Virus record (IMG/VR): IMGVR_UViG_3300034954_000075
Location: 1 to 35,549 of that record
Length of the DNA: 35,549 bases
Source of the DNA: a virus
Strand: one strand, 5' to 3'
A program made the position numbers and the translations under genes. The first letter of the stretch is position 1; the number at the start of each line of letters is the position of its first letter. This document shows, one piece after another, positions 1-35,549 of this stretch. Below the pieces are notes generated by a model. It made no database searches. It saw only the letters and a program-made list of their open reading frames with translations, and was not told the DNA's origin.

Positions 1-169
1 CAGATTGAGATGGAGAAGAGCAGAAGTAATTAGACACGATCAAAACGCACATGATCGTATGAAAAGGTATCAATGTATTATGTTGCTTGATACTGCTACA
101 AAGTTTGCAGAAGAACCCTTTTGGCATGTAGCACAGGCAGATTTTACAGGCAGAATTTATTATGTGTCA
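1..169. repeat. Terminal overlap of the contig, left copy
   Basis: These 169 bases recur at 35381-35549 with one difference (A at 43, G at 35423). They lie inside the RNA polymerase gene, and joining the ends restores one continuous reading frame. This is an assembly overlap marking a complete circularly closed contig, not a biological terminal repeat. The difference changes CAA to CAG, both Gln, so it is silent and probably reflects population variation. Confidence 0.95.
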
Positions 170-1405
170 GGGATATTTAATCCTCAAGGTAATGATTTAG
201 CTAGAGCTTTGCATAGGTTTGCAGAAGGTGCAGCAATAACAGATGAGAAAGCAAAGAATTGGTTAGGTATTGCAGGTGCTAACTCTTGGGGTATGAGCAA
301 ATACAGTTATGAAGAACGTATTGAATGGTCTAAAACAGAAGGAGAAGCATTAGCCAGACAGATAGCAAGCAATCCAGAATCTTATATCAGCATATGGAGT
401 CAAGCAGAAGAACCATTTCAATTTCTTGCCTGGTGTTTAGACTTCAATGAATTACTTGAAGAGGGATATGGATATATAAGCAAGCATCCTGTCTTACTTG
501 ATGGTACAAACAATGGCTTTCAACATTTTGCAGCCATGTCTTATGACAATAAACTTGCAGCAAAGGTTAATTTAAAAAACTATGACGAGGTAGAGGACCT
601 TTATGAAGAGGTTAAAGATGAAGTTATAAATGAATTATCAAAGCAAGCAGATACTATTGCAGAAGATTGGTATCAACATCATCAAGTCATTACAAGAAAG
701 ATGATAAAGAAACCTGTGATGATGATTCCATACAGTGGTAAAACTTTTGGTATTACAAATGCTATCCGAGATTATTTTATGGCAAGCGATGAAGACTTGT
801 CTTGGAATAAAGATTGCTTTTTACATAATCATTATCTTGCAAAAATAATAGAGAAAAGTGTTAATAATATCTGCCCTAAATGTATAATAGTGATGAAATA
901 TTTAACAGAGATAGCAAGATGTTTTGGTAAAGAAGATAAAGATATGACATGGATTACACCTTCTAAGTTTTATGTTAAGCAGCATTATTACAAGTCTAAT
1001 ATAAAAAGAATTGCCACCAAACTGCATGCTACGACTGTACAGTTGTCACTTAATTGTAATACAACAGAGATTGATAAAAGAAAATCTACACAGAGTTTTG
1101 CAGCAAACTTTGTTCACAGTTTAGATGCTGCTAATGTACATTTAGCGTTAGAAAAAAGTAAAGCTAGTGGTCTTAATCAGTTCTGTACAATACATGATTG
1201 TTTTGGATCACCTGCTGCACATATAGAAGAATTTATAGGTTATGTAAAAGAAAGTTTTGTTGATATGTATAGTAAAAATTTATTAGATGATTTATACCAG
1301 CAAGCAGTAAAACAGTTAGATGATCCAAGCAAGCTACCCATACCACCAGACATAGGGGATTTTGATGTGTGTGAAGTTTTATTAGCACCATATGTGTTTA
1401 GTTGA
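1..1405 (+). CDS. gp1: T7-like single-subunit RNA polymerase, C-terminal part (partial; continues from window end)
   Basis: This is the catalytic half of the phage DNA-dependent RNA polymerase, which transcribes middle and late phage genes. The gene starts at 34392 and runs across the circular junction; joined it encodes 797 residues, against 883 in T7. Numbered on the joined protein, motif A is LLDGTNNGFQHFAAM with metal-binding Asp497. Motif B is KKPVMMIPYSGKTFG, with Lys566 and Tyr574 equivalent to T7 Lys631 and Tyr639. Motif C is IHDCFG with Asp729. The upstream NFVHSLDAANV matches the conserved T7 segment NFVHSQDGSHL. All catalytic residues are present, so the enzyme looks active. SSB follows after a 92-nt gap. 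The break in the gene is only where the contig was opened. Confidence 0.97.
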   Translation, partial: RLRWRRAEVIRHDQNAHDRMKRYQCIMLLDTATKFAEEPFWHVAQADFTGRIYYVSGIFNPQGNDLARALHRFAEGAAITDEKAKNWLGIAGANSWGMSKYSYEERIEWSKTEGEALARQIASNPESYISIWSQAEEPFQFLAWCLDFNELLEEGYGYISKHPVLLDGTNNGFQHFAAMSYDNKLAAKVNLKNYDEVEDLYEEVKDEVINELSKQADTIAEDWYQHHQVITRKMIKKPVMMIPYSGKTFGITNAIRDYFMASDEDLSWNKDCFLHNHYLAKIIEKSVNNICPKCIIVMKYLTEIARCFGKEDKDMTWITPSKFYVKQHYYKSNIKRIATKLHATTVQLSLNCNTTEIDKRKSTQSFAANFVHSLDAANVHLALEKSKASGLNQFCTIHDCFGSPAAHIEEFIGYVKESFVDMYSKNLLDDLYQQAVKQLDDPSKLPIPPDIGDFDVCEVLLAPYVFS

Positions 1406-1497
1406 ACAAATGCGTGACAAGTAATTTTCTTGCGGTACTATCAGTGATACATCCAATATGGATGCAATTAAAAGAAAACTTAAACTGAAATTTCCAA

Positions 1498-2124
1498 ATG
1501 ATTAAATCAGAAATTATCAACATCACAACACCAGTGTGCCTATTTCAATTTGCATGGCTGGTAGAACCCGACACAAAATTTGATGCGTCAGGTATATGGC
1601 AGGTCGAATGTCTTATTGATCCAGAAAAATCACAAGATATAAGTGATCAATTAGATGGACTTCTTGAAAGATGGAAAACGCAATTAAAAATTGCTAATCC
1701 TAATAAAAAATTTAAACTTGCACCATTACCTTTTGGTTATGAAGACATAGATGGCAAGCCATACTTCAGAATCAAAACCAAAATGAAAGGTGGAGGAGTA
1801 AGGGCAGATGGTACACAGTGGAAACAAAGACCACCTGTTTTGTTTAATTCTGATGGTTCTCCTATGACAGAAGACCAGAAGGAAAAAGTTAACAAGTGTG
1901 GTCCTGGTACAACAGGTCAAGTCAACATGCGTTGCAGTGGGTGGGAAAATCCAAGCTTTGGTGTTGGTATAAAGATCCAACCAGAAGCTGTCATCATTCA
2001 CAACCATGTCGAGTACACAAAAACCGCACAAGGCTACGGCTTTGAAACAGAAGAAGCAACCATCGAAGAAGAGAAACCCAAAGCGAAAGCAGGGTTTGAA
2101 ACAGTCGGAGCAGACGAATTTTAG
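1498..2124 (+). CDS. gp2.5: Single-stranded DNA-binding protein, T7 gp2.5-like
   Basis: The 208-residue protein resembles T7 gp2.5 (232 aa), which coats single-stranded DNA and coordinates the replisome. It sits between RNA polymerase and endonuclease I, as in T7. The first ~175 residues would form the OB-fold core. The C-terminal tail is low-complexity, rich in Glu and Lys, and ends in GADEF; an acidic tail with a terminal Phe is the hallmark by which gp2.5 contacts polymerase and helicase. The tail is encoded in DNA shared with the next gene (overlap 2006-2124). No Shine-Dalgarno sequence is visible before the ATG. With no phage DNA polymerase in this genome, the tail's usual partner would have to be the helicase or a host enzyme. 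Confidence 0.88.
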   Translation: MIKSEIINITTPVCLFQFAWLVEPDTKFDASGIWQVECLIDPEKSQDISDQLDGLLERWKTQLKIANPNKKFKLAPLPFGYEDIDGKPYFRIKTKMKGGGVRADGTQWKQRPPVLFNSDGSPMTEDQKEKVNKCGPGTTGQVNMRCSGWENPSFGVGIKIQPEAVIIHNHVEYTKTAQGYGFETEEATIEEEKPKAKAGFETVGADEF

Positions 2125-2485
2125 AAGTAAGTTTGAAGCTGCAATAGCAGCTACATTACAAGCAAATAAAGTTCCTTATACCTATGAAACACTTGATGTT
2201 AGCTACCAAATCAGTTGCATTTATAAGCCTGATTTCATCCTTGACAACGGCATCTGTATTGAAACTAAAGGCTTCTTCTCAAAAGAGGACCGCAGAAAAC
2301 ATGTTGCGATCAAGACGCAACGACCCGACCTAGATATTAGGTTCTGTTTTCAAAACAGCAAAGCAAAATTGAGTCGTGGCAAAAGAAGTTTAACCTATGG
2401 TGCTTGGGCTACTAAGCATGGGTTTCTTTGGAGTCACGGCTCTATCCCTGAAGAATGGATGAATGAAAACACAAGAAAAAATTAA
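2006..2485 (+). CDS. gp3: Endonuclease I / Holliday junction resolvase, T7 gp3-like
   Basis: The 159-residue protein matches T7 endonuclease I (149 aa), which resolves branched DNA and helps degrade the host chromosome. Catalytic residues are visible: Glu44 in FRSKFE, Asp76 in KPDF, Glu86 and Lys88 in ETKG, the equivalents of T7 Glu20, Asp55, Glu65 and Lys67. The ATG at 2006 is the only ATG before the domain and gives a 38-residue Lys-rich N-terminal arm, longer than in T7. A TTG at 2096 would give a T7-like length instead. From the ATG the gene overlaps SSB by 119 nt in another frame, where SSB encodes its disordered tail. Confidence 0.9.
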   Translation: MSSTQKPHKATALKQKKQPSKKRNPKRKQGLKQSEQTNFRSKFEAAIAATLQANKVPYTYETLDVSYQISCIYKPDFILDNGICIETKGFFSKEDRRKHVAIKTQRPDLDIRFCFQNSKAKLSRGKRSLTYGAWATKHGFLWSHGSIPEEWMNENTRKN

Positions 2486-2582
2486 CAACGCAAAACAAAG
2501 AATTAAAGAACTTGAATGTCTTATCAAACATTGGGAGAAAGATGACACAAAGCAAGTATCTCAGAAAAGAACCATGCCCTGA
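2463..2582 (+). CDS. Possible 39-residue helical peptide between endonuclease I and primase
   Basis: This short reading frame starts MKTQEKINNAKQRIKELECL and looks like a single amphipathic helix or coiled coil. It overlaps the end of endonuclease I (to 2485) and the start of primase-helicase (from 2542), filling the gap in a region where genes are tightly overlapped. The codons read like protein and there is a weak purine-rich stretch upstream of the ATG. I do not recognise a family. It may be a real small gene or a chance frame. Confidence 0.35.
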   Translation: MKTQEKINNAKQRIKELECLIKHWEKDDTKQVSQKRTMP

Positions 2583-4149
2583 GTGTGGCAGTAAAGATAA
2601 CCTAGCCATCTATGATGATGGACATGGTTACTGTTTTGGTTGTGGCTATACGCAGCAACCACAAAAAGATAAACCCAGAAAATCTTTTGTAAAACCAGTG
2701 AAGAAACCATTACTTAAATTTGTTACACCAAAAGCATTGCCAAAGCGTGGACTTTCGCACGAAACTTGCGAACTGTTTAACTACGGAATATCTGAACATA
2801 ACGGTCAACCAGTACAGGTTGCTACCTATGAAGACAAGTTAGGTAGACAGGTTGCACAGCATATTAGATTTCAAAACAAAAAATTTATCTGGCTTGGTGA
2901 TGTAAGTGATCTACAACTATGGGGCCAGAGATTATGGAGACAAGTTAATACAGGTAATATGTTTGTCACTATTACAGAAGGAGAGATTGATTGCATGTCA
3001 GTCTCACAGGCACAAAATAACAAGTATCCTGTAGTAAGTTTGCCTTCGGGATCACAGTCGGCTAATAAATATATAGCTGCAAATCTGAAATGGTTATCTC
3101 AATTTGTACGGATAGTAATTTGTTTTGACAGTGACGAGCCTGGCATGGTTGCTGCCGAAAAAGCAATTAAAATCTTACCTCCTGGTAAGGCAGCAATATG
3201 TAGACTCCCTAGAAAAGACGCTAATGAAATGCTCATCGCAGGTGAGGGGGAAGAACTTAGAGATCTCCTATGGAAGGCAACACCTGTTAGACCAGATGGC
3301 ATCCTTAACGCATCTAACCTATGGACAGAGCTAACAAAGAAAGGCAGTAATAGTATTTGTTCTTTTCCTTTTCCAGAGCTAGATAAGTTCTGTAAAGGGT
3401 TTCGTAAACAGCAGATGCTTTGTATTGCAGCAGGTAGTGGTACAGGTAAGTCAACTATATGTCGTGAACTTGCACATCACTTTATGAAGAATAGTTTGAC
3501 CGTAGGTTATATAGCTCTTGAAGAATCGGTACAAAGAACAATGCAGGGGATACTCGGTGTAGAGATGAATAAACCCCTGCATCTTGAGGATAATGTAGAA
3601 GAAACAGAAGGGCTAAAACAATCGTTTGACAGACTGTTTGGTACAGGAAAACTATTCTTATATGATCACTTCGGTTCTATTGATCCTGATAGATTAGTCG
3701 AACAGATACAATATCTTGCAACAGCAGAAGGTGTAGATGTTGTTATCTTGGATCATTTAACAATAGTTGTTTCTGGTATCAGTGACCTTGATGAGAGAAG
3801 AGCTTTAGATGTGGTCTGTACAAAGCTTAGACAGGTAGTTGAATCTACTGGTATAGGTTTAGTTATTGTTTCTCACTTACGTAGACCAGAAGGCAAAGGA
3901 CATGAAGAAGGTAATAAAGTAAGTCTTAATCATTTAAGGTCTAGCCATTCAATAGCACAACTATCTGATTTAGTAGTTGCCTGTGAAAGAAATCAGCAGT
4001 CAGAAAGTTATGCAGAACGAGCAGAACTACAGTTAAGAGTATTGAAGAACAGACACACAGGAATGACAGGACCAGTAGATAAATTATTGTATGACGAAAA
4101 GACAGGAAGGCTTGTAGTACCTATGGAATCTTATTTTGGAAACAAATGA
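2542..4149 (+). CDS. gp4: Bifunctional DNA primase-helicase, T7 gp4-like
   Basis: This 535-residue protein makes primers and unwinds DNA at the fork; T7 gp4A has 566 residues. In order it has a zinc-binding domain (Cys12, Cys15, Cys31, Cys34), a TOPRIM primase core (TEGEID with Glu146; FDSDEPG with Asp196 and Asp198), and a RecA-type hexameric helicase. The helicase shows Walker A GSGTGKST with Lys303, Walker B VVILDH with Asp404, the HLRRPEGKGHEEG loop, and an arginine finger in CERNQQ (Arg483, like T7 Arg522). I chose the ATG at 2542 because GGGAG lies just upstream; a TTG at 2512 would add ten residues. The stop overlaps the exonuclease start as ATGA. No polymerase gene follows, which is exceptional for this position. 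Confidence 0.95.
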   Translation: MTQSKYLRKEPCPECGSKDNLAIYDDGHGYCFGCGYTQQPQKDKPRKSFVKPVKKPLLKFVTPKALPKRGLSHETCELFNYGISEHNGQPVQVATYEDKLGRQVAQHIRFQNKKFIWLGDVSDLQLWGQRLWRQVNTGNMFVTITEGEIDCMSVSQAQNNKYPVVSLPSGSQSANKYIAANLKWLSQFVRIVICFDSDEPGMVAAEKAIKILPPGKAAICRLPRKDANEMLIAGEGEELRDLLWKATPVRPDGILNASNLWTELTKKGSNSICSFPFPELDKFCKGFRKQQMLCIAAGSGTGKSTICRELAHHFMKNSLTVGYIALEESVQRTMQGILGVEMNKPLHLEDNVEETEGLKQSFDRLFGTGKLFLYDHFGSIDPDRLVEQIQYLATAEGVDVVILDHLTIVVSGISDLDERRALDVVCTKLRQVVESTGIGLVIVSHLRRPEGKGHEEGNKVSLNHLRSSHSIAQLSDLVVACERNQQSESYAERAELQLRVLKNRHTGMTGPVDKLLYDEKTGRLVVPMESYFGNK

Positions 4150-4877
4150 CTTTATTAATTGACGCTGATTGGCTCGTTTTCACCTCATGTATTAACGCTG
4201 AAAGAGAATATGAATGGATGAGAGACTTGTGGAGCTTTAAGTTTGATGCACAAGAAGTACATGAAATAATTGATACAAGAATTAAGCGTTACCAAGCAAT
4301 AGCTGAAGGTGATAAAGATGTTGTTATGTGCTTTACTGAGTACCCAACATTTAGACATACGATATATCCAGAGTACAAAGCTAATAGAAAAGAAAAAAGG
4401 AAGCCTTGTAGATATAGAGAAACGATAGAACAAGTTAAAGACAAATATAGATCGGAAAGCTATCCAGGTTTAGAGGGAGATGATGTTCTTGGACTTCTTG
4501 CAACTAGCAAAAAATATCCAGATCCCATTGTTGTATCAATAGATAAGGACATGAGATCTGTACCTTGCACACTATTAGCAGGTGATGACATGGAACTTAT
4601 AACCAAACGTAAAGCTGATAGACATTGGATGATACAAGCTCTTACAGGTGACAGTACTGATAACTACTTTGGTATAGATAAGGTAGGACCAGTAACAGCA
4701 GAAAAGATATTAGGTGAAGCTAAAACACTTGAACAAATGTGGGAAAAGGTAGTAGCTGCGTATGAGAAAAAGAAATATAAATTTGCTGATGCTGTTCTTA
4801 ATGCACAGCTTGCAAGAATACTGAGAGATGGAGATTTTGATTACAACACTGGAGAAGTATCTCTCTGGACTCCATAA
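4146..4877 (+). CDS. gp6: 5'-3' exonuclease, T7 gp6-like
   Basis: The 243-residue protein is a FEN/5'-nuclease homologue of T7 gp6 (300 aa), which removes primers, degrades host DNA and aids recombination. Visible motifs are IDADWLVF (Asp6, Asp8), YKANRK (77-82), LEGDDVLG (109-116), DKD (133-135), GDSTDN (168-173), and a helix-three-turn-helix GIDKVGPVTAEKIL (176-189). The C-terminal SLWTP parallels YLWRP in T7. The gene is translationally coupled to primase-helicase through a 4-nt ATGA overlap. In T7 the DNA polymerase gene lies between these two; here nothing does. Confidence 0.93.
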   Translation: MTLLIDADWLVFTSCINAEREYEWMRDLWSFKFDAQEVHEIIDTRIKRYQAIAEGDKDVVMCFTEYPTFRHTIYPEYKANRKEKRKPCRYRETIEQVKDKYRSESYPGLEGDDVLGLLATSKKYPDPIVVSIDKDMRSVPCTLLAGDDMELITKRKADRHWMIQALTGDSTDNYFGIDKVGPVTAEKILGEAKTLEQMWEKVVAAYEKKKYKFADAVLNAQLARILRDGDFDYNTGEVSLWTP

Positions 4878-5018: not shown

Positions 5019-5222
5019 ATGTCATCTGAAAAACTACCAGTAATTACAGATGAAATGATTTTTGCCTTAGATCAAATCTTTCCTAATCGTCATCCTGATT
5101 TGTCTTTATCTGATAGAGAGGTATGGTATAGAGCAGGGCAACGGTATGTTGTTGACTTCCTGATCGAACAACAAAAAAGGCAAAAGGATACCATGCTCAA
5201 TCAATCAGTCTTGGAGAATTAG
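5019..5222 (+). CDS. Small conserved-type protein upstream of portal
   Basis: The 67-residue acidic protein starts MSSEKLPVITDEM and contains the segment DREVWYRAGQRYVVDFL. I recall similar short proteins in front of the portal gene in cyanobacterial T7-like phages, but cannot assign a function. There is no membrane segment or Cys motif. It is the first gene of the morphogenesis block and is followed after 2 nt by the next gene. The start lies in TAATCATG without a Shine-Dalgarno sequence. Confidence 0.7.
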   Translation: MSSEKLPVITDEMIFALDQIFPNRHPDLSLSDREVWYRAGQRYVVDFLIEQQKRQKDTMLNQSVLEN

Positions 5223-5224
5223 CC

Positions 5225-5449
5225 ATGTGCGTCGGCAGAAGACCATCCCCACCACCTTTACCAAAACCCAGGCCAACAGCACCAAGACCTGAACAAACTG
5301 CTCAACGTGTAGTGATTGGATCGCAAAGGGCTGAAGGGGGAAGAAGAAAAACACCAACTCAAAGAACTAGAAGAAGGTTAGGTACACAGTCATTAAGAAT
5401 ACCTTTACTGGCTCAAGAACAGACAGGAACAGGTAATCTTAGGTATTAA
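5225..5449 (+). CDS. Small Pro/Arg-rich protein starting Met-Cys, possible virion protein
   Basis: The 74-residue basic protein begins MCVGRRPSPPPLPKP; Pro is concentrated at the N-terminus and Arg in the centre. It occupies the position of the small T7 genes 6.5-7.3 before the portal. The Met-Cys start also occurs in the next gene, in the gp14 homologue here, and in T7 gp6.7 and gp14. A role as a minor virion protein (gp6.7 or gp7.3 type) is a guess from position and composition. Two-nucleotide gaps on both sides suggest translational coupling. Confidence 0.65.
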   Translation: MCVGRRPSPPPLPKPRPTAPRPEQTAQRVVIGSQRAEGGRRKTPTQRTRRRLGTQSLRIPLLAQEQTGTGNLRY

Positions 5450-5451
5450 TT

Positions 5452-5760
5452 ATGTGTATATTTAGCAACAGAGGAAGTCAAGCCGTTGTGCAACCCACAT
5501 CAACTTTTCGTGATGCTCCACCGATTGTGACAGGATCACAAACTGGTGTTGCTAATCCGAAAGATACTGAGAAGGCAACAGAAGAATTAAAAATTAAAAG
5601 ACAAAAAGAAGAAGGAACTTATTTAGATCCAAATCTTAGTAGGCTTGAAGAAGCTTTAAATCCAGGTAGTGGTAGGAGTAACAGAAGACGTTTTAGTAGA
5701 AAAGGAGCTATTAGGAACAGCAGAAGAGGTTCTAGTAGTAGCAGAGGAAGAAGATCTTAA
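5452..5760 (+). CDS. Small basic protein starting Met-Cys, possible minor virion protein
   Basis: The 102-residue protein begins MCIFSNRG, has a charged middle (about residues 45-75) and ends in an Arg/Ser-rich tail resembling nucleic-acid-binding tails. It shares the Met-Cys start and position with the preceding gene and may correspond to T7 gp7.3 or gp6.7. It is followed after two bases (TAATTATG) by the portal gene. No enzymatic motif is seen. Confidence 0.65.
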   Translation: MCIFSNRGSQAVVQPTSTFRDAPPIVTGSQTGVANPKDTEKATEELKIKRQKEEGTYLDPNLSRLEEALNPGSGRSNRRRFSRKGAIRNSRRGSSSSRGRRS

Positions 5761-27841: not shown

Positions 27842-28349
27842 TCGTAATAGTAACCTTAGTAGATCCTATGCAACTTGTACCCGATCCACCTGCGGTACAG
27901 GTATGAACTCCAGAACTTAGTGAAGTAAGTGCAAGGTTGCCAGCAGTACCGCCTGATCCTACTGTTGTCTGTCCACCTAATACTGGTAATGCTGCGATAC
28001 CACTAGAAGGAGTTACAGCAGATGGGGTGGCATCTCCCATAGTTACGGATTCTGTTTTACTAAATGCTGAACCTGCTGTTGTAATACTTGTATCTGTCTG
28101 AATCATCGCTGGAACGCCATTAGTCAACGAACCAACATTGATACCACCAATCTTTCCTGATGTTGTAGTATCTCCTACAGTTACAGATGGTGTTATGTTG
28201 TTTCCGCTAAGACTATATGTAGTACCTACTTTATTAGTAACTGAATAAGGCATATCAACAGTTATTTGTGCAGAGGTTACAAATTCCTGTTTTATATCAG
28301 CAAATGCAGCCGTTGGTAAAAATAAAAGTAAAGCAAATAGTTTTTTCAT
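27834..28349 (-). CDS. Putative secreted Gly/Thr/Ser-rich beta protein
   Basis: The 171-residue protein begins MKKLFALLLFLPTAAFA, a textbook signal peptide with AFA cleavage before DIKQEF. The mature part has the composition of an extracellular beta-structure: VTVGDTTTSGKIGGINVG, SVTMGDATPSAV, then a Cys pair near the end (HTCTAGGSGTSC) that could form a disulphide loop. Its start overlaps the membrane-protein stop as ATGA. It could be an exported adhesin-like or fibre-like subunit; that is inference from composition only. Confidence 0.78.
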   Translation of the reverse strand: MKKLFALLLFLPTAAFADIKQEFVTSAQITVDMPYSVTNKVGTTYSLSGNNITPSVTVGDTTTSGKIGGINVGSLTNGVPAMIQTDTSITTAGSAFSKTESVTMGDATPSAVTPSSGIAALPVLGGQTTVGSGGTAGNLALTSLSSGVHTCTAGGSGTSCIGSTKVTITID

Positions 28350-28600
28350 TGAATACCTACCTTAGTGTCTTTATTGTCTACTATTTTAGCAGTGTTGTTG
28401 GGCTTCTTTTTGTTAACGGAGATACCGTATGAACCTAAAACCCCACTGGTTAAACCTGCCAAAAAAGCTCCGTCATTACGAATCTTGTCCATGTATCCAA
28501 GAGTCATCATCGCTAAAGACCAACAAAGAATCATGAATCGGACAACGTGACCAAAAAGTTCAGCCCAATCCGTACCTTCTTTTTCGTCTTGATCTTCCAT
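28346..28600 (-). CDS. Small two-helix membrane protein, holin-like, first gene of minus operon
   Basis: The 84-residue protein has an acidic N-terminus, two hydrophobic segments (about 19-37, VVRFMILCWSLAMMTLGY; 44-62, GAFLAGLTSGVLGSYGISV) and a Lys-rich C-terminus. This plan fits a class II holin, which makes holes in the inner membrane at lysis, but also any small transporter or anchor. No endolysin or spanin is adjacent; instead three secreted proteins follow on the same strand, coupled by an ATGA overlap. A holin is the leading guess for lysis in this genome. Confidence 0.65.
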   Translation of the reverse strand: MEDQDEKEGTDWAELFGHVVRFMILCWSLAMMTLGYMDKIRNDGAFLAGLTSGVLGSYGISVNKKKPNNTAKIVDNKDTKVGIQ

Positions 28601-33811: not shown

Positions 33812-34164
33812 AAATAGAATGTTTTAGCAGAAGTGAATGGTTAGAAATAGCAGATATAATTTCTTTACATTGTCCTAGTGAACCAATTATTGAAAAATTA
33901 ATATCAGAAATAAATAATAAAACAAATTTATTTAGTATAACTCATGAATTTTTTATAAAAAATAATATAAATCCTGTTTTTTTCCCTCATAGAAATACTA
34001 TTGAAAAACTAAAAGGTGGAAAAGGTTTAACAAAAAGGTTATCAACATATTCTAGTAGTACAGGTAAGGGTATGGTTTCATTTAAAAAAGACTATCAAAT
34101 ATATATTTTTAATAAATATGTAATTACAGAAAAACAGGAGACTAATAATGATTCAATGTCCTAA
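33808..34164 (+). CDS. Hypothetical protein of unusually AT-rich composition
   Basis: The 118-residue protein begins MKIECFSRSEWLEIADIISL and contains FFIKNNINPVFFPHRNTIEK and KGGKGLTKRLSTYSSSTGKG. Its codons use AAT, ATA, TTT and AAA far more than the neighbours, so it looks recently acquired or weakly constrained. A ribosome site (GGGAGGAGG) lies before the ATG, and the gene overlaps the zinc-ribbon gene by 17 nt. No family recognised. Confidence 0.7.
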   Translation: MKIECFSRSEWLEIADIISLHCPSEPIIEKLISEINNKTNLFSITHEFFIKNNINPVFFPHRNTIEKLKGGKGLTKRLSTYSSSTGKGMVSFKKDYQIYIFNKYVITEKQETNNDSMS

Positions 34165-34408
34165 CTGCAACAGCGACAATACTATTGTCTTACATACAAG
34201 AGAAAGGGAAGCTGCATATCTTTGGAGGTCTAGAACCTGCAAAGAATGTGGTAAGAAGTTTAGTACAAGAGAGTACAGTTTAGAAGAACTTGCTAAATTG
34301 ATTGATGAAGGCAAAGAATCTCTTGATAATATGCGTGGTCACTGCGATGAACTATTAGCAGATTTAAAAGAACTTATCTCTCAATACTCTAATGACAAAG
34401 CAAACTGA
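34148..34408 (+). CDS. NrdR-like zinc-ribbon protein without ATP cone
   Basis: The 86-residue protein begins with a four-Cys zinc ribbon: CPNC at 4-7 and CKEC at 31-34, with RSRTCKECGKKFSTREY. This closely matches the N-terminal DNA-binding ribbon of NrdR, the bacterial repressor of ribonucleotide reductase genes. The ATP-cone that senses nucleotides in NrdR is replaced by a ~45-residue Glu/Lys/Leu helix, likely for dimerisation. It may bind NrdR boxes or phage operators; that is inference. The ribosome site ACAGGAG lies upstream, and the gene overlaps RNA polymerase by 17 nt. Confidence 0.8.
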   Translation: MIQCPNCNSDNTIVLHTREREAAYLWRSRTCKECGKKFSTREYSLEELAKLIDEGKESLDNMRGHCDELLADLKELISQYSNDKAN

Positions 34409-35549
34409 TTTAGAAGATCGCATGTGGAGTCGTGGTTTTGATAGACGGCAACGCAACATTAACAACAACTTAGCTAAAGGTAGAGAATCAGAAACAGATT
34501 ATGCAAAGAGCATGATTAAAGCTGGTCTTCTACCTTTTGTTGAAGCGATACAACAATTCCTTGATAGGGCTTGGAGAGGTACACCAGGGGTAAAAGCTAC
34601 AGCAGCAATCAAACTACATGAATTAAAAGATGTAGATGTAATAGCTTTTATTACTTTTAAAGGTGTTATTGATGGTGCTTCTCAAAACAAAACCGCTACA
34701 CAAATAGCTATACAAGTAGGTCATATGCTTGAAGATGAACAAAGGTTTTCTTTGTTTGAAGAGCAAGATGAAAAGCATTTTAAAAACGTAAAACAACATA
34801 TATCAGATACAAATCATCCAAGATATAGACGCAATATGATGATAGGTCATATGAGAAACAGAGGTTTTGTATTTAAACCTTGGTCAAAGGAAGACAAACT
34901 AAAGGTTGGTATGAAGCTTATAGATATAATGATTAGTGCGGTTGGTATGGTAAAACTTTCAACTATAAGATCAGGAAAACAAACCAAAACCTATGTTGAA
35001 TTTACAGAAGTAACTATGGATTGGATAAAACGGCAACGCAAAAATAGATTAGCTTGTTATCCATTGTACGAACCATGTGTAGAACAACCGATTGATTGGA
35101 CTAGCACTACTGAAGGTGGTTTTCATACAAAAAGATTAAGACATATCAAAGCAATAAAATCAAAAGACCTTACCTACCATGAAGAAGTAACAAAAAGAAA
35201 ACCAACAGCACTTTATACAGCACTGAATTGTCTTCAACAAACAAAGTGGGAGATAAATACAACTGTTCTAGATATTGCTCAAAGCTGTTGGGATAGAGGT
35301 ATAGAAGTAGGTTGTTTAATAGATGCTGAACCACTACCACAGACTCCAAGACCTTTTGATATTAATACTAATGAAGAATCCAGATTGAGATGGAGAAGAG
35401 CAGAAGTAATTAGACACGATCAGAACGCACATGATCGTATGAAAAGGTATCAATGTATTATGTTGCTTGATACTGCTACAAAGTTTGCAGAAGAACCCTT
35501 TTGGCATGTAGCACAGGCAGATTTTACAGGCAGAATTTATTATGTGTCA
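34392..35549 (+). CDS. gp1: T7-like single-subunit RNA polymerase, N-terminal part (partial; continues at window start)
   Basis: The frame starts at ATG 34392 (MTKQTDLEDRMWSRGFDRRQ) and stays open for 386 codons to the window end, including the duplicated 169 bases. After joining at 35380/1 it gives a 797-residue polymerase. This part covers the N-terminal promoter-recognition domain and the start of the palm. Segments such as AIKLHELKDVDVIAFITFKG and QIAIQVGHMLEDEQRF resemble the T7 N-terminal domain. The start overlaps the zinc-ribbon gene by 17 nt and has no obvious Shine-Dalgarno sequence, so translation may be coupled. It is the last gene of the early region, so host RNA polymerase should make it. 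Confidence 0.95.
   Translation, partial: MTKQTDLEDRMWSRGFDRRQRNINNNLAKGRESETDYAKSMIKAGLLPFVEAIQQFLDRAWRGTPGVKATAAIKLHELKDVDVIAFITFKGVIDGASQNKTATQIAIQVGHMLEDEQRFSLFEEQDEKHFKNVKQHISDTNHPRYRRNMMIGHMRNRGFVFKPWSKEDKLKVGMKLIDIMISAVGMVKLSTIRSGKQTKTYVEFTEVTMDWIKRQRKNRLACYPLYEPCVEQPIDWTSTTEGGFHTKRLRHIKAIKSKDLTYHEEVTKRKPTALYTALNCLQQTKWEINTTVLDIAQSCWDRGIEVGCLIDAEPLPQTPRPFDINTNEESRLRWRRAEVIRHDQNAHDRMKRYQCIMLLDTATKFAEEPFWHVAQADFTGRIYYVS
35381..35549. repeat. Terminal overlap of the contig, right copy
   Basis: This is the right copy of bases 1-169, identical except at 35423 (G here, A at 43). It shows that the contig closes on itself; unique length is 35,380 bp. Confidence 0.95.

Follow-up and report, generated by a model that had tools for sequence, protein, structure and literature searches.

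A polymerase-less T7-like phage genome of the MPP-C kind that probably depends on a host DNA polymerase, and the contrasting C-terminal tails of its primase-helicase and SSB

The window analysed here is a 35,549-nucleotide stretch of viral DNA (IMG/VR record IMGVR_UViG_3300034954_000075). It is the complete genome of a marine T7-like phage of the MPP-C kind; very probably its ancestor lost the gene 5 region once and its DNA is copied by a host polymerase. The clade MPP-C comprises the 18 polymerase-less cyanopodoviruses isolated by Cai et al. (2022; PMC9860041). Within this clade the window represents an uncultured sublineage, and the phenomenon itself was already published in 2022. New here, as judged from sequence comparison, would be the contrast between two C-terminal tails in the polymerase-less lineage: the tail of the primase-helicase gp4 is lost or capped, whereas that of the SSB is kept.

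Comparison of the window ends revealed a 169-bp direct repeat whose copies differ at a single position (43), which leaves a unique length of 35,380 bp. The single-subunit RNA polymerase of 797 aa is intact once read across the end join. From the 169-bp overlap and the RNA polymerase frame closing across the join we concluded that the window is a complete phage genome, in agreement with the sequence-only reading, which held that the contig closes on itself. The features referred to below are as follows.

1..169, no strand: left-hand copy of the 169-bp repeat at the ends, by which the contig closes; lies within the RNA polymerase gene
2..1405, plus strand: single-subunit RNA polymerase, second part (phrog_414, PF00940)
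1498..2124, plus strand: gp2.5-like SSB with an acidic C-terminal tail ending ADEF (phrog_112, E 3.2e-14)
2006..2485, plus strand: endonuclease I (gp3-like), overlapping the SSB gene (PF05367, E 5.1e-36)
2542..4149, plus strand: T7-like primase-helicase gp4, tail end MESYFGNK (phrog_239, E 2.5e-167)
4146..4149, plus strand: ATGA overlap of the gp4 stop (4147-4149) and the exonuclease ATG (4146-4148); site of gene 5 in polymerase-bearing relatives
4146..4877, plus strand: gp6-like 5'-3' exonuclease (phrog_107, E 3.5e-59; PF02739 and PF01367)
34392..35549, plus strand: single-subunit RNA polymerase, first part, running over the join to 1405 (phrog_414, PF14700)
35381..35549, no strand: right copy of the 169-bp end overlap

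The genes are arranged in the order RNA polymerase, SSB, endonuclease I, primase-helicase, exonuclease, portal, scaffold, capsid, tail, internal proteins, fibre, and terminase. The window thereby has two features of Autographiviridae, the single-subunit RNA polymerase and the T7-like gene order. SSB and endonuclease I matched PHROG families, and endonuclease I, primase-helicase, and exonuclease matched Pfam families, so that the four replication proteins named in the sequence-only reading are all present; the SSB had no Pfam match. By motif patterns, the window gp4 has a zinc ribbon, a Toprim motif, and a Walker A motif. Strict patterns fitted 96, 131, and 95 of 203 polymerase-less gp4 proteins, and with looser patterns the P-loop was found in 203/203; the zinc ribbon and Toprim are hence claimed for the window gp4 only, and the P-loop for the whole clade sample. 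Directly before the RNA polymerase gene, positions 34148-34408 (plus strand) encode a protein of 86 aa that carries an NrdR-type zinc ribbon (PF22811, E 5.4e-10), of which P-SCSP2 carries a 33% relative. The protein is presumably too short to include an ATP-cone.

The searches bore out the claim that the window has no DNA polymerase gene. PF00476 (DNA_pol_A) had no match on the window record. An HMM built from five phage polymerases and run with --max at E<=10 matched none of 510 six-frame window segments wrapped over the join. This HMM detected 8/8 polymerase-bearing phages outside its training set (best segment of each at E<=1.3e-147), and over 88 further loci its matches were confined to the five polymerase-bearing reference phages. 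When the sense ORFs (10 + 32 proteins) were scanned against Pfam, no DNA polymerase family of any kind came up; the portal and major capsid genes were scanned against PHROGs only, and antisense ORFs with the polymerase HMM and PF00476 only. Each window ORF longer than 300 aa matched RNA polymerase, primase-helicase, portal, major capsid, nozzle/tail tube B, LysM/transglycosylase-like internal protein, internal virion protein, tail fibre, or terminase. A hidden polymerase in the window was rejected, as every ORF without identity has at most 248 aa. Cai et al. listed host Pol I, host Pol III, and an unrecognised polymerase as options for DNA copying in MPP-C, and could not exclude the third (PMC9860041). 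Several window ORFs do lack a family, but a polymerase too divergent for recognition is very improbable, given that all ORFs above 300 aa are otherwise identified and that the early unknown ORFs (202, 118, 83, and 68 aa) have no counterparts in P-SCSP1a. An early gene common to the window, P-SCSP1a, and P-SCSP2 yet missing in HTVC031P would be a candidate for a dedicated recruiter; none was found.

The junction of gp4 and exonuclease was then compared across relatives. T7, P-SSP7, P60, and the pelagiphages HTVC031P, HTVC168P, and HTVC120P share with the window a gene order that runs from RNA polymerase through SSB, endonuclease I, and gp4 to exonuclease, but they have gene 5 between gp4 and exonuclease and a gp4 ending in DF. 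Loci around gp4 were collected from eight IMG/VR scans, with the best 80 of hundreds matched per scan. Among the 381 loci listed, the window included, 149 have a polymerase, 211 are polymerase-less (gp4 followed by exonuclease), and 21 were set aside as having both the polymerase and the downstream exonuclease out of reach. The 4-nt overlap at 4146-4149 noticed in the sequence-only reading is the ATGA given above, and 203/211 polymerase-less loci among the matches listed have a junction of -4 to +3 nt. The window and the isolates P-SCSP1a and P-SCSP2 are among the loci with this tight junction. In contrast, gp4 and exonuclease lie 1,736-6,089 nt apart in the polymerase-bearing loci among the matches listed (n=248), which together with the six named phages agrees with the expected place of gene 5 in T7-like phages.

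This conservation bears on the possibility of an assembly or sampling artefact, by which the gene would have been lost in assembly or would have moved elsewhere. The window is a metagenomic contig whose end copies differ at one base, and IMG/VR records may be fragments. However, the 203 loci with the same junction, the two isolates included, rule out assembly loss of the polymerase, including loss of a segment between 4100 and 5000, which the sequence-only reading had named as a way to be wrong. Moreover, PF00476 was found anywhere in 0/33 whole records of polymerase-less relatives, which were chosen by hand and of which 27/33 are at least 35 kb long, and in 9/9 polymerase-bearing records serving as positive controls. 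We regard an artefact as next to impossible.

In a few polymerase-less relatives, one extra gene lies between gp4 and exonuclease, where other phages have gene 5.

L033 2153-2851: Mom-like DNA modification protein (scanned)
L048 3058-3756 and L049 7602-8300: Mom-like look-alikes, by resemblance to L033
L057 1911-2621 and L351 7593-8180: DNA methyltransferases
L061 7629-7976: protein without assigned identity
L076 4287-4529: NrdR-type zinc ribbon

One polymerase-less relative (L007) lies on a contig of 56,384 bp, most other long records having 35-41 kb; it is possibly a concatemer or a chimaeric assembly.

In a gp4 tree of 52 representatives, the 18 polymerase-less ones all fall on one side of a 100/100 branch (100% of bootstrap trees). 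The tree is based on one of nine core genes, includes the tail columns, and is rooted at the midpoint. The polymerase-less clade, which is separate from MPP-A and MPP-B, contains P-SCSP1a, P-SCSP2, and MedDCM-OCT-S08-C159, and the window belongs to a further sublineage without an isolate. The suspicion that this genome fits a reported polymerase-less cyanopodovirus lineage was thus well founded, as its gp4 shares one clade with MPP-C members P-SCSP1a and P-SCSP2 (PMC9860041). The window and MPP-C (P-SCSP1a-u, P-SCSP2) have in common the T7-like order, the lack of a DNA polymerase, and an exonuclease directly after gp4; the placement with P-SCSP1/P-SCSP2 is by the gp4 tree only. Like the MPP-C isolates, the window has no auxiliary metabolic gene in the Pfam lists: no Pfam family of psbA, hli, mazG, rnr, talC, or thyX appeared in the window scans, only the NrdR-type zinc ribbon. 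Its 35,380 bp lie outside the 37.3-37.9 kb of the MPP-C isolates, which is a descriptive range and no criterion, and several relatives have 35-36 kb. P-SCSP2 has an integrase, whereas none was found in the window. MedDCM-OCT-S08-C159 (Jalkavirus, GU943031) resembles the window in its 4-nt gp4/exonuclease overlap and in having no polymerase in its 10.3-kb record, but it is a fragment, its gp4 is 57-58% identical, and it belongs to the P-SCSP2-like sublineage. A cryo-EM paper has dealt with P-SCSP1u (PMC10575957).

Identities to the two isolates differ between gene groups. Those to P-SCSP1a are 55% for SSB, 64% for gp4, 27.5% for RNA polymerase, 49% for capsid, 47% for portal, and 52% for large terminase; the corresponding values for P-SCSP2 are 28%, 55%, 44%, 92%, 77%, and 78%. 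The exonuclease is 53% identical to both. By these identities, the window is a mosaic with P-SCSP1-like SSB and gp4 and P-SCSP2-like RNA polymerase and virion genes. An 84-aa DUF6450 protein at 28346-28600 (minus strand) is 93% identical to its counterparts in both P-SCSP1a and P-SCSP2; given the capsid identities above, this would point to either unusual conservation or recent exchange, and the gene is perhaps a lysis gene. Positions 5209-5628 of P-SCSP2 (L001, OM416780.1) contain an intact, unannotated frame of a 139-aa endonuclease I (PF05367, E 6.2e-37) overlapping the SSB gene; PMC9860041 states that P-SCSP2 has no recognisable endonuclease gene. In HTVC025P (L387), the annotation splits the RNA polymerase at 238-3401 into two ORFs, between which lie two small ones. 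As for hints to the host, the window has no tRNA and no Rfam match. A scan of genome contigs with gp4 matched no picocyanobacterium and gave four distant loci, the best one (44%) in Devosia. This gp4 relative lies inside a bacterial chromosome contig of the Devosia enhydra genome (L613, 8001-9557) and is perhaps part of a T7-like prophage.

We then inspected the C-terminal ends of gp4. The T7 polymerase is bound by the negatively charged tails of gp4, and their removal lowers processivity threefold (PMC8472574). Without the tails, cooperative binding to fork DNA is abolished, and synthesis goes on at about half efficiency with gp2.5 (PMC8835902). Unlike the window, a T7-type replisome includes a family A polymerase of its own, which docks on a gp4 tail that is acidic and ends in Phe. 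Among 13 named polymerase-bearing phages, gp4 ends in Phe in 12, the exception being HTVC025P with GDFDE. We speak of an acidic-Phe end where the last residue is Phe and at least one of the three preceding residues is acidic. It occurs in 150/157 close and 181/207 distant polymerase-bearing loci listed, and in 0/211 polymerase-less ones. Any terminal Phe was counted in 151/157, 191/207, and 9/211 of these loci, respectively, and the mean net charge of the last 12 gp4 residues is -2.48, -3.36, and -0.13. Some contigs were entered twice with different flanks; unique gp4 proteins listed give the same picture, with an acidic-Phe end in 104/110 close and 162/188 distant polymerase-bearing proteins and in 0/157 polymerase-less ones. 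The SSB, in contrast, has a terminal Phe in 145/145 close and 173/175 distant polymerase-bearing loci and in 171/171 polymerase-less loci, counting the readable loci listed; the residue directly before this Phe is acidic in 156 of the 171.

The gp4 difference concerns the very end of the protein. Many polymerase-less gp4 tails retain a Phe capped by one to four residues. An acidic-Phe pair within the last four residues is present in 50/211 polymerase-less versus 149/149 polymerase-bearing loci listed; the 50 matches are mostly EDFI of the P-SCSP2-like sublineage, with EDF one residue from the end. A slightly wider span gives 70/211 polymerase-less gp4 tails listed. On the other side, five close polymerase-bearing loci have one or two alanines after the gp4 Phe, and 16/207 distant polymerase-bearing loci listed have no terminal Phe, which indicates that this residue is not strictly needed. 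An absolute rule equating a gp4 terminal Phe with a polymerase is weakened by these 16 loci and by the P-SCSP2-like EDF ends. In the literature searched we found no report of the gp4/SSB tail pattern, and the word "C-terminal" is absent from the main text of Cai et al. (PMC9860041). Read from the sequences, the helicase has apparently lost its dock for the phage polymerase, and the SSB seems still to dock a partner.

Polymerase loss and gp4 tail change are one event on the gp4 tree, which makes their association one evolutionary coincidence, with no scope for statistics. No second independent polymerase-less T7-like lineage appeared among the best 80 loci of each of three wider scans: of the 224 loci listed, 207 have a polymerase, and the remaining 17, which either stop within 1 kb downstream of gp4 or contain only part of it, carry no weight either way. 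As these are the best 80 of hundreds matched per scan, rarer polymerase-less lineages could be missed. The gp4 tail may alternatively have changed by drift or as a side effect of its newly arisen overlap with the start of the exonuclease, with no rewired replisome. The end of gp4 overlaps that start or lies right next to it, several ends are lineage-specific, and the tree holds only the one event, all of which suit this explanation; yet polymerase-bearing gp4 genes such as that of HTVC031P also overlap the next gene and keep the tail, and drift once the partner was gone would itself fit a gp4 no longer docking a polymerase. We give this explanation considerable weight, if somewhat short of an even chance.

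The replication reading that we prefer starts from an ancestor that would have lost the gene 5 region, with the polymerase and small neighbour genes, once, so that gp4 was joined to exonuclease. RNA polymerase, SSB, primase-helicase, endonuclease I, and exonuclease would come from the phage itself, and a host polymerase would copy the DNA. Presumably gp4 opens the fork and primes, and the SSB coats the single strand and may draw in host replication proteins via its tail. Coupling of the helicase to the host polymerase would differ from that in T7 or be missing altogether. That a host polymerase cooperates with the phage helicase and SSB is plausible and was already proposed by Cai et al. (PMC9860041). 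Dependence on an obligate helper phage was rejected, since isolates of MPP-C were grown on Prochlorococcus MED4 (PMC9860041).

As to which host enzyme performs synthesis, we lean slightly towards the Pol III holoenzyme with its clamp rather than Pol I, because the family scans (one listing covering 25 of 70 families) brought up no recognisable phage clamp or processivity factor and because gp4 lacks the end that holds the family A enzyme in T7. Host DNA polymerase I, a cellular relative of gp5, might instead have taken over from the phage enzyme. Like T7 gp5, Pol I belongs to family A (PMC9860041), and contacts with gp4 or SSB could therefore carry over. The same two observations weigh against Pol I, however, the gp4 end contacting the family A enzyme in T7 not being kept in polymerase-less loci, and Pol I is a repair enzyme (PMC9860041); we consider its recruitment unlikely. 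Returning to Pol III, we tentatively suggest, with more doubt than conviction, that gp4 shed or capped its docking tail after gene 5 loss and that the SSB tail became the handle for the host holoenzyme. The same tentative reading would make this a hybrid replisome joined through the SSB and not from helicase to polymerase. The sequence-only reading had presumed a mixed replisome and asked whether a host polymerase binds the gp4 C-terminus or the SSB tail; loss of the acidic-Phe end speaks against the former, and retention of the SSB tail would favour the latter.

MPP-C accounts for almost half of the cyanopodovirus reads in the surface ocean (Discussion of PMC9860041), and the comparison of tails sharpens the question of how the DNA of these abundant phages is copied. 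Surveys that take DNA polymerase as their marker overlook several further uncultured sublineages. Two tails have related roles in T7, and in this lineage one is given up and the other kept, which allows a prediction of which phage protein touches the host polymerase and illustrates what may become of a very compact replisome once its polymerase is outsourced.
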